From: Alphaproteobacteria bacterium
GTDB lineage: Bacteria; Pseudomonadota; Alphaproteobacteria; Rs-D84
Length of the DNA: 58,212 bases
Assembly (NCBI GenBank): GCA_015062545.1
Contig: SUUL01000007.1
Location: forward strand, 1 to 58,212
Direction of reading: 5' to 3'
Part shown: piece after piece, positions 43,345 to 45,280 of the stretch
How positions within the stretch are numbered: the first letter of the stretch is position 1
Layout of the letters: the number at the start of each line of letters is the position of its first letter
Notes under the pieces: generated by a model
Seen by the model: the letters and a program-made list of their open reading frames with translations, nothing else
What the model was told of the DNA's origin: nothing
Databases searched by the model: none
Position numbers and translations under genes: made by a program

Positions 43345-43416
43345 GGCGTAATTAGATTTCCTGTTGCAATTTATTTGTATATTACCTAGACTTTTTATAA
43401 ATCGCAAGGGGGAATG

Positions 43417-44658
43417 ATGAATATTTTTATCATGATATTGGTTGCACTGTTTATGGCGGGCTATTATATGATGGACAGCCCCAGTCAACAGGTATTAGAT
43501 CATGATACTGAATATGCTGTGACTTTATCCGATTTGCGTACTGTGGCCCAGTGTGCAACGGCCTTGCACAATGCGCAAATCAATGGTTTGGAATTTACGG
43601 ATACCTGTGTTGACACGTACGGTATAACCAGTCGTTTTGTTTGTCTGGACAGTCGTTACAAGATAATGTCCTGTTCTGCCGAAGGGACCAAGAAACCCGC
43701 GTTCAGTTATATTGTAACCGTATCTGCGCCATTGGAATCAGACGATCACAATGACATTATGGAAATACTAGAGAAATATTATTCTGAATCTGGCACATTT
43801 GGCTTGTTCCAAGATGGCAAGATTATGTCTGGTGGCACATCGAACAAGCGTATTGTTCCTGCGGCGATTGTCCAAGAAATGAAAATGACGGATGGGCAAC
43901 TGGTCTATTTTACCCAGTACGAGGTTCCAGATATGGGCACCCAGATTGGTGGTGCGGCAACTGTTGCGGACGTTGTATGTCCGGTTGGTACGGCAAAAAC
44001 ATATCGTTTTGGTCGGTGGCAATGTATTCCATACAATGTTAAAATTGATTGTGGTGGTGACCTGATATGGGATTCCGATTTATATGCATGTGTGGCGGAT
44101 GAAACGCGCCGTCCGCTGTGTGCAGGTATCCAGACTGCGGTTATGGTGGATGATGTCTGGGAATGTGTCAGTCCTTTTCCGGACAGGGTTTGTCCTGCGA
44201 AAATGATTGCGCGTTTGAATTATAATACGATGGAATGGGAATGTGTTGCCGATCCCACGATTGAAACAACTTCCAAGAAATGCTCTAATTTTATTGGAAA
44301 TGTGGTTTATGGTGCCTTGGGAACAACATTACGGATTCAGCATACATCTTGTACGGATTGCGAACGCATGATAACAGACCCCGAAACGTGTGCAACGACA
44401 TGTGTGCCCGACCCGACCAAGGTCACAGATTCGCGCTGTTATCCGGGGGTGGTTGACGAATGTAGTGGCCCCAGTCGCGCATTTTATTTTGGTTTTCCAA
44501 ATCGTACATATGTATCTGGGGTGACGGATGTGTCGGATATTGCGGTTCCATTGGATGCATCTCATTCCCAGAATCGCAAGTTTAATTGCCTGGATTGTGG
44601 CGCGGGGGAAATAGACGCATCGCGTTCTCGTCCGCCCTTTGTTGCGGTGTGCAAATAA
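43417..44658 (+). CDS. Cys-rich membrane-anchored exported protein
   Basis: The 413-residue protein starts at the second of two adjacent ATGs (43417), which is four bases after GGGGG. One N-terminal hydrophobic helix (IFIMILVALFMAGYYMM) anchors it. About 26 Cys residues follow, mostly after residue 190, in units such as CGGDLIWDSDLYACVAD and CVSPFPDRVCPAKMIARL, and in CTDCERMITDPETCATTC. These units resemble Cys-knot, disulfide-stabilised extracellular modules. The first domain (about 40-150) resembles minor pilin-like sequences, but no GFxLxE prepilin motif is present. It lies divergent to lptE. Function unknown. Confidence 0.72.
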   Translation: MNIFIMILVALFMAGYYMMDSPSQQVLDHDTEYAVTLSDLRTVAQCATALHNAQINGLEFTDTCVDTYGITSRFVCLDSRYKIMSCSAEGTKKPAFSYIVTVSAPLESDDHNDIMEILEKYYSESGTFGLFQDGKIMSGGTSNKRIVPAAIVQEMKMTDGQLVYFTQYEVPDMGTQIGGAATVADVVCPVGTAKTYRFGRWQCIPYNVKIDCGGDLIWDSDLYACVADETRRPLCAGIQTAVMVDDVWECVSPFPDRVCPAKMIARLNYNTMEWECVADPTIETTSKKCSNFIGNVVYGALGTTLRIQHTSCTDCERMITDPETCATTCVPDPTKVTDSRCYPGVVDECSGPSRAFYFGFPNRTYVSGVTDVSDIAVPLDASHSQNRKFNCLDCGAGEIDASRSRPPFVAVCK

Positions 44659-44665
44659 GGTTTAT

Positions 44666-44884
44666 TTACGGCTTGTATTTTGGGTCATTCAGCACCGATT
44701 CAAACCCGTGTTCCATTAATTCTGTCAGCATAATCAGCTGCATTACACTAGGGGAAAATCGGTTGTGTATCAAGTCATCATATTCACGTTCTGATTTCAG
44801 ATTCATTACATTGCATATACACCAAATTGGGATTTTTTTCTGTTTTCTGACCTGTTCTATTTCGCGCCCCAGTGAAATTGTCAT
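44666..44884 (-). CDS. Small HTH-like protein downstream of the structured RNA
   Basis: The 72-residue protein begins with MTISLGREIEQVRKQKKIPIW, a pattern seen in small XRE/Cro-type helix-turn-helix proteins, and then ICNVMNLKSEREYDDLIHN. It has a GGGGG ribosome-binding site six bases before the ATG. The gene starts about 20 bases 3' of the RNA terminator at 44900-44932 and may be expressed by readthrough. The HTH call is tentative; DNA binding is an inference. Confidence 0.6.
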   Translation of the reverse strand: MTISLGREIEQVRKQKKIPIWCICNVMNLKSEREYDDLIHNRFSPSVMQLIMLTELMEHGFESVLNDPKYKP

Positions 44885-44899
44885 TGCATACCCCCACTG

Positions 44900-44934
44900 T
44901 AAAAAAATAAAACCGCCAATGAATAAAGGCGGTC
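44900..44934 (-). terminator. Terminator of the structured RNA
   Basis: ACCGCC/GGCGGT hairpin (44912-44917 with 44928-44933) with a T tract on the minus strand. It lies between the RNA and the 72-residue gene. Its stem overlaps the base of the rod. Confidence 0.75.
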
Positions 44935-45008
44935 GGGGAGTTAGTAAATCATGTATATCAATGACTCTATTGCATTTTCGGTTACCCGTATTTTATATTG
45001 CAACAGCT

Positions 45009-45026
45009 CCCCGACCATGGTCGGGG
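45009..45026. repeat. Perfect 18-bp palindrome
   Basis: CCCCGACCATGGTCGGGG is fully self-complementary and forms the apical hairpin of the structured RNA. Confidence 0.9.
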
Positions 45027-45106
45027 GACTTAACGATGCATTTGTTGCACCGGATATACATGGGGTTACTACACCCCGAACCCAAAACCCATTGGATTCA
45101 ATTCAG

Positions 45107-45134
45107 ATTATATCAATTTATACAAAATATTCAA
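45107..45134 (-). promoter_or_regulatory. Promoter of the structured RNA
   Basis: On the minus strand TTGAAT (45129-45134), a 16-base spacer and an extended -10 TGATATAAT (hexamer 45107-45112). Start point about 45100. Confidence 0.6.
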
Positions 45135-45203
45135 ATAAATATTATTTTATAAAAAAAAGACTTGCATTTATTCCACGGACAGTATATCATGCATAACGCT
45201 TTA

Positions 45204-45280
45204 GGGGTTGTAGCTCAGCTGGTTAGAGCGTCTGCCTGTCACGCAGAAGGTCGCGGGTTCGAGCCCCGTCAATCCCGCCA
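45204..45280 (+). tRNA. tRNA-Asp (anticodon GUC)
   Basis: This is a 77-base cloverleaf with acceptor GGGGTTG/CAATCCC (one G-U), D-arm AGCTCAGCTGGTTAGAGC, anticodon loop CTGTCAC (GTC), T-arm GGGTTCGAGCCCC and encoded CCA. Confidence 0.95.

Follow-up and report, generated by a model that had tools for sequence, protein, structure and literature searches.

The systems that most closely resemble the RNA described here are the C4 RNA of phages P1 and P7, the CI RNA of the satellite phage P4 and the bacterial RNA sRNA-Xcc1. RNase P processes the precursors of C4 at a GGW motif, and 21 C4-like sRNAs have been reported in Acinetobacter baumannii (PMC5320573). Both C4 and a “c4-a1b1” motif were listed by Weinberg et al. 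(PMC2864571). The P1 record NC_005856 annotates a1, b1, C4, a2, b2 and icd in that order. P4 CI RNA acts on transcription termination via the sequences seqA and seqC (PMC4825925). The third system, sRNA-Xcc1, was described as an 88-nt sRNA (PMC2996969) and is located upstream of symE in Xanthomonas integron cassettes (PMC12444791), a size and position that would fit a processed leader.

We analyzed a window of 58,212 nucleotides, positions 1 to 58,212 of contig SUUL01000007.1 (assembly GCA_015062545.1), from an alphaproteobacterium of the Rs-D84 lineage. The original prediction placed on its minus strand a rod-shaped structured RNA of nearly 200 bases, flanked by a promoter and a terminator, and suggested that it might be 6S RNA. 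The 271-nt fold had an energy of -84.4 kcal/mol compared to -64.6 ± 4.9 kcal/mol for dinucleotide shuffles (z = -4.06), and none of 200 shuffles folded as well. The structured RNA on this strand is therefore real, and the length of its predicted transcript, ~195 nt, agrees with the one first proposed. Read along the minus strand from 45134 to 44885, the locus consists of a promoter, P1, P2, b1, P3, P5, a core of ~85 nt, a terminator, a ribosome site and a start codon (Table 1).

Table 1. Predicted parts of the leader in the window and of the gene that follows it.
Feature	Position	Strand	Description
Promoter, sigma-70-like, TTGAAT-16-TATAAT	45107..45134	-	-35 TTGAAT at 45134-45129; -10 TATAAT at 45112-45107; TG before the -10
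Hairpin P1 (GAATCCAA...TTGGGTTC)	45078..45099	-	Extreme 5' end of the RNA; from sequence
Hairpin P2 (GGGG/CCCC)	45062..45077	-	Loop holds a1 (TAGTA, 45071-45067)
b1 (CATGTATATC)	45053..45062	-	5' strand of long-range helix PX; 10-bp complement of b'
Hairpin P3 (CGGTGCA/TGCATCG)	45034..45052	-	From the fold and the copy sequences
Hairpin P5 (CCCCGAC/GTCGGGG)	45009..45026	-	Perfect 18-nt palindrome CCCCGACCATGGTCGGGG, the apical palindrome of the original prediction; excludes P8
P8, 5' strand (GGTCGGGGAG)	45007..45016	-	sRNA-Xcc1-like core begins here, at the GGW motif
Hairpin P6	44967..45006	-	Conserved internal loop (AUAAAAUAC/GAAAA) and GNRA-like loop
Hairpin P7 (AGTCA/TGATT)	44947..44966	-	Loop holds b' (GATATACATG, 44959-44950); covariation
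a' (TACTA)	44942..44946	-	P7-P8 joint (J7/8); partner of a1
P8, 3' strand (CTCCCCGACC)	44931..44940	-	Proposed antiterminator strand; last bases also in the terminator stem
Intrinsic terminator (ACCGCC...GGCGGT)	44901..44933	-	10-nt loop; T-tract 44912-44901; from sequence
Shine-Dalgarno GGGGG	44891..44895	-	From sequence
Gene of the 72-residue small HTH-like protein, putatively regulated	44666..44884	-	Member of a genus-wide family

The promoter was found as described, with TG before its -10. Two matches of the promoter type were found where 1.7 were expected, so that the promoter taken alone is within chance. Across copies, however, the -10 hexamer mostly lay 12-13 nt 5' of hairpin P1 wherever a good hexamer was present, and at least 5 of its 6 positions matched in 37 of 58 copies compared to 7 of 58 at a control position. 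At this distance from the -10, transcription would be expected to begin at P1. Immediately 5' of P2, a P1 hairpin with 4 bp or more was found in 56 of the 58 anchored copies, and the P3 stretch differed in length among copies. The predicted terminator was likewise found, with its stem and T-tract following the RNA. It was read from the sequence, since an automated scan with a loop limit of 8 passed over the 10-nt loop of the window copy, and it ends a few bases 5' of the ribosome site of the 72-residue gene. Near this junction we observed a two-codon frame, ATGCAATGA (ATG CAA TGA, 44889-44881 on the minus strand), whose stop overlaps the start codon of that gene.

6S RNA is widespread among bacteria and usually occupies one or two loci per genome. 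The length of almost 200 nt, the rod-like fold and the RNA's own promoter are all consistent with this identity. An Rfam scan of the window at gathering scores, on the other hand, matched only tRNAs, and the 6S model (RF00013) gave no match in the region even at E ≤ 10 and none in the whole genome (938,825 bases, 97% complete), so that no 6S gene was found elsewhere in it either. The same search succeeded in the Caulobacter, E. coli and B. subtilis controls. The 6S RNA of this organism may be divergent, or absent from its reduced genome. Nor does the arrangement resemble 6S RNA, as there are 14 copies in the genome, each typically 5' of a gene, and the rod has to compete with an alternative fold, with pseudoknots present. 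We therefore rejected the 6S identity, which we regard as extremely improbable, in favor of a multicopy 5' leader.

Related copies were detected by blastn in 46 of the 99 genomes searched. A covariance model that we built from 34 copies (R1) matched the core in the window at 45016-44906 with 110 bits; it gave 14 matches in this genome and 42 in a sister genome (G048). Elsewhere in the genus, 55 of 58 genomes had at least one copy; so did 12 of 18 genomes from the rest of the order and, at E ≤ 1e-5, 31 of 385 genomes sampled from the class Alphaproteobacteria. The relatives recovered by protein search were gut and rumen metagenome-assembled Alphaproteobacteria, including Candidatus Enterousia, a lineage of the order Rs-D84 with reduced genomes (PMC12306168). 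A second class of leaders (L238-L248) has a GGTTGGAGG core and a conserved GAATATATTGAATAAG loop in P6, and precedes a multi-member family of small HTH-like proteins. Because R1 scores this class weakly, the copy numbers per genome are probably underestimates.

At the corresponding loci of 80 relatives we found only 5 R1 matches. Synteny with 72 relatives stops at ~44660, right after the open reading frame at 43414-44658, and the leader, the 72-residue gene and the adjacent tRNA-Asp (44660-45280 of the window) are not at this place in those 72. We therefore rejected the idea that the leader is conserved at the same locus, and the window copy is a local placement. A further copy came from a viral-collection contig (L236:4878-5110, IMGVR_UViG_3300029904_000303), where one full leader stands before the gene of a secreted-type protein and downstream of serine-recombinase-like, HTH and reverse-transcriptase-like (YVDD motif) genes. 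This region may be a mobile island.

A multicopy, dispersed sequence whose copy in the window sits at a synteny break could also be a mobile or recombination element acting at the level of DNA, either a folded site like integron attC or a dispersed repeat, in which the palindromes work in the DNA itself; the occurrence of sRNA-Xcc1 in integron cassettes (PMC12444791) would be in line with this. Such an element would not account for the G-U pairs in P5 and P8, for the strand-specific conservation of promoter, terminator and ribosome site, or for the narrow spacing to start codons, and the copies seen do not lie in cassette arrays. We consider a DNA element very unlikely, and we rejected the attC form of it in view of the dispersal of the copies and the conservation of RNA-type pairs.

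Covariation among relatives, one of the checks suggested with the original prediction, gave a very strong signal in the core and in the long-range helices. In the core alignment (A1), 16 of 28 pairs changed on both sides while 98.1% of cells were paired, and none of 500 shuffles reached both values. The signal collapsed once the partners were slid by one column. In P6, covariation extended over all 8 stem pairs and the two inner pairs, and P8 had covariation of its own at inner pairs that lie outside the nucleotides it has in common with the terminator.

Two long-range pseudoknots, a1·a' and b1·b', were both important and were missing from the helices originally listed. We tested them on the 58 copies in which P1 and P2 provide an independent anchor. 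For b1·b' (PX), a copy's own segments formed 8.3 of 9 pairs compared to 5.5 when segments were swapped between copies, a count that tolerates a register shift of up to 2 nt and gives the swapped controls equal freedom; none of 20,000 permutations did as well, and several PX columns contained all four Watson-Crick pairs in numbers. For a1·a', the mean run was 5.0 in a copy's own segments and 2.6 in swapped ones, again with 0 of 20,000 permutations. In a joint test of a1 and b1 on 102 distinct copies, divergent subfamilies included, the signal exceeded the 95th percentile of swapped pairs in 86 (0 of 20,000). Complementary runs of 7-15 nt occurred in twenty loci from other alphaproteobacterial families, where a test of this kind again gave 0 of 20,000. 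The own-versus-swapped signal was weaker in the 11 HTH-gene leaders (95 of 20,000 permutations).

The P6 internal loop (AUAMAAYA/GAAA) is conserved among the gut copies while PX and PY drift freely. Cross-complementarity above threshold occurred in 4.0% of comparisons within a genome versus 5% between genomes, which is a weak tendency only, and we do not claim selection for orthogonality among the copies of one genome.

The rod was confirmed, but not as a single nested structure, as it competes with a second fold. With the 5' sequence CCCCGAC the strand GGTCGGGG can form P5, and with the 3' sequence CTCCCCGACC it can form P8; because this strand is common to both, P5 and P8 exclude each other. 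A P5 of at least 6 bp was present in 80 of 102 copies and was not found in the other 22. The base of the rod, which is the 3' strand of P8, does overlap the terminator stem (GACCGCC), as had been noted. Since P8 shares nucleotides with this stem, P8 and the terminator exclude each other as well. The overlap amounted to 2 nucleotides or more in 90 of 100 copies, and to 3 or more in 78. All four inner stem pairs of the terminator were intact in 88 of 100.

Similar results were obtained outside the genus and in the second leader class. At the class level, 17 of 20 loci possessed a T-rich terminator having 3-5 nt in common with P8, and in all 11 of the HTH-gene family leaders 4-5 nt were common to the two. 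The shared strands also co-vary: they read GGTC/GACC/GGTC in most copies and GGTT/AACC/GGTT in L062, L064 and most HTH-gene leaders. The original prediction had raised the possibility that the rod and the terminator exclude each other in the manner of an attenuator for the 72-residue gene. The sharing of P8 and terminator nucleotides in most copies, and their joint change between subfamilies, speak strongly for this arrangement. With pseudoknots ignored, the median advantage of the fold with P5 and the terminator over 73 copies was 10 kcal/mol; in the window copy it was 8.4 kcal/mol. These energies, which leave out both pseudoknots and co-transcriptional folding, suggest that the default state is off.

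The position of the leader relative to genes is regular. A start codon followed the end of the R1 model in 98 of 102 copies, at a median distance of 21 nt. The target genes are accessory. By a simple N-terminal criterion, about half of them encode surface or secreted proteins with a signal peptide or lipoprotein-like start. Others encode glycosyltransferases, RgpF-like proteins, EcoRI-type and type III methyltransferases, UzuA-like GIY-YIG proteins, PLD-like and Imm_superinfect proteins, an OMP beta-barrel and XRE HTH proteins, without an evident common pathway. PADLOC models matched the EcoRI-type and type III methyltransferases and two UzuA-like GIY-YIG proteins; most targets had no such match, and we rejected an anti-phage role for all of them.

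Homologues of the 72-residue protein were found in 23 of 98 relatives. The protein had no Pfam match and could be aligned only weakly with XRE-like small proteins (10-15% identity). An R1-type leader stood directly 5' of this gene family at all 12 loci examined, the window locus included, so the leader and the 72-residue gene belong together. This lends further weight to the proposal of an attenuator acting on that gene.

These data also bear on whether the RNA is a trans-acting antisense sRNA of the C4 type, whose terminator would simply be its 3' end and whose processed core would act elsewhere, with read-through into the next gene incidental. Discrete short RNAs have indeed been seen for sRNA-Xcc1 and for the 21 C4-like RNAs of A. 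baumannii (PMC2996969, PMC5320573), and the GGW motif is retained in most copies: GGT occupies its position in the 5' strand of P8 in the window copy and in 70 of 102 copies. However, the closely spaced start codons and the constant association with the 72-residue gene family would be unexpected for such an RNA. A plain 3' end would not need the conserved sharing of strands among P5, P8 and the terminator either. We judge this explanation improbable, although less so than a DNA element.

The explanation that we favor, and think probable, is attenuation of transcription in cis by a 5' leader of ~195 nt built on the plan of C4/CI and sRNA-Xcc1 and coupled to a terminator. Sequence and covariation show that the architecture and its wiring are conserved, the position is gene-proximal and the copy number is large. 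The core, made of P8, P6 and P7, displays the recognition segments a' and b', whose pairing partners a1 and b1 lie nearer the 5' end of that leader. P8 and the terminator need the same GACC, and P8 thus has the form of an antiterminator and P5 that of an anti-antiterminator. In the proposed mechanism P5 and the terminator would form by default, the gene would be off and a short RNA would be released; if P8 formed instead, the downstream gene would be transcribed. The switch might be set by pairing of a1 and b1 with a' and b' in cis, or by their capture by a second copy of the RNA in trans. Each gene would thereby be subject to a self-specific negative feedback of its own, comparable to the immunity of P4 and P1. 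Within the genus, this module has been multiplied before dozens of accessory genes.

The trigger is the weak point of the attenuator model. On paper, both states of the switch can be made to fit a1/b1 pairing, and in a model based on antisense pairing alone the conserved P6 internal loop is superfluous. This loop could bind a ligand or a protein. One could then suppose a riboswitch that senses a ligand or protein, in which the P6 loop binds a common signal, a1·a' and b1·b' close the aptamer and all copies respond together. It would explain why the P6 loop is conserved in the gut copies and has a counterpart in sRNA-Xcc1 across the Pseudomonadota while PX and PY drift. Many copies per genome before surface and defense genes would suit a regulon, and the output has the form of a riboswitch. 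On the other hand, both the a1/b1 and a'/b' segments and the order in which they stand agree with C4, which is known to work by antisense pairing. In sRNA-Xcc1 loci these segments recur at the ribosome site, a repetition for which a ligand aptamer has no need, and the targets have no evident common pathway. We therefore consider a riboswitch unlikely, but a more serious alternative than a trans-acting sRNA.

A broader reading may be offered tentatively, and we hold it with less confidence than the attenuator model itself. The Rs-D84 gut lineage, including Candidatus Enterousia and relatives, may use dozens of independent, self-recognizing RNA attenuators, related to phage-type immunity RNAs, to run much of its accessory genome, with surface, glycan, restriction-modification and small HTH genes among those controlled. 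Each would have its own a1/b1 code, and each gene would be silenced by its own RNA, bursting on only in a naive cell or upon escape from feedback. Were the feedback self-specific, a single cell would naturally contain dozens of RNA regulators that are orthogonal to one another. The terminator-coupled output and the genus-wide expansion were not found described in our literature search. No Rfam 15 family matched the leader at gathering score, and the leaders are therefore likely to be unannotated in public genomes.

Compared to the described systems, the leaders are related to sRNA-Xcc1 and C4/CI-like on paper, yet they are members of neither by the tests that we used. At a permissive threshold, the sRNA-Xcc1 model (RF02221) matched the window at 44924-45015 with 41.8 bits (E = 7.4e-6), below its gathering score of 53, and the best match genome-wide reached 42 bits, also below that score, with E = 1.8e-6 for a sister copy. 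Reciprocally, R1 matched sRNA-Xcc1 loci with E values down to 2e-10. The leader core and sRNA-Xcc1 share a homologous core structure and are distantly related. Both have the basal helix P8, a P6 with an internal loop (of the AAUACAA/GAAUA type in sRNA-Xcc1) and a P7 with a recognition loop, and an upstream copy resembling a1/b1 was present in the sRNA-Xcc1 loci examined. The two differ in that the gut copies have a strong P5 and a terminator overlapping the P8 strands, whereas sRNA-Xcc1 loci carry a second copy, a2/b2, at the ribosome site that the gut copies lack.

Matches to sRNA-Xcc1 occurred in 58 of 398 genomes of the phylum. In 28 of its loci together with P1, the P7/joint segment was complementary to copies on both sides, one lying upstream and the other downstream, close to the ribosome site (0 of 20,000 permutations for each), with L130, L131, L141 and L148 as examples that have both. 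Among the 102 gut copies tested, no downstream a2/b2 complementarity rose above the swapped controls, and we rejected for them the a2/b2 at the ribosome site that C4 would lead one to expect. By eye, the downstream genes at sRNA-Xcc1 loci L125, L130, L132 and L133 resemble those of phage antirepressor-type proteins, as in P1. These comparisons suggest that sRNA-Xcc1, instead of being a free-standing sRNA, forms the core of a leader switch.

The C4 model (RF01695) had no match in the genome at E ≤ 1, and direct membership of that family was rejected on this basis. The likeness to C4 lies in the plan: a promoter, then a1 and b1 complementary to a' and b', then a three-stem RNA that contains a' and b' and bears GGW at the 5' edge of its core, and then a gene. 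In contrast to the gut leaders, C4 has a2/b2 at the ribosome site, where the leaders have the terminator; the C4 sequence of P1 lacks their conserved P6 loop, and C4 controls a phage antirepressor operon. The 21 Group 1 C4-like RNAs of A. baumannii are similar in their chromosomal expansion and variable recognition loops, but they were reported as sRNAs with undefined targets (PMC5320573), whereas the gut RNAs are leaders of defined genes and have a terminator as well as covariation of a1·a' and b1·b'.

The P4 CI system (seqA-CI-seqC), which we compared by description only, offers a parallel for control. Its processed RNA pairs with complements upstream and downstream in the leader and causes premature termination (PMC4825925), and the gut leaders have upstream complementarity and an overlapping terminator, which may serve control of this type. 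Unlike P4, they are chromosomal and multicopy, and their dedicated terminator overlaps a core helix. With terminator-type riboswitches and attenuators they share a mutually exclusive antiterminator and terminator together with an anti-antiterminator; they differ in having no known ligand class and recognition segments that are hypervariable between copies. Taken together, these comparisons unite RNAs that had been described separately, namely sRNA-Xcc1, phage C4 and, as known from the literature, P4 CI, in a common architecture whose covariation can be measured; an alphaproteobacterial branch of it has a terminator in place of the ribosome-site target.
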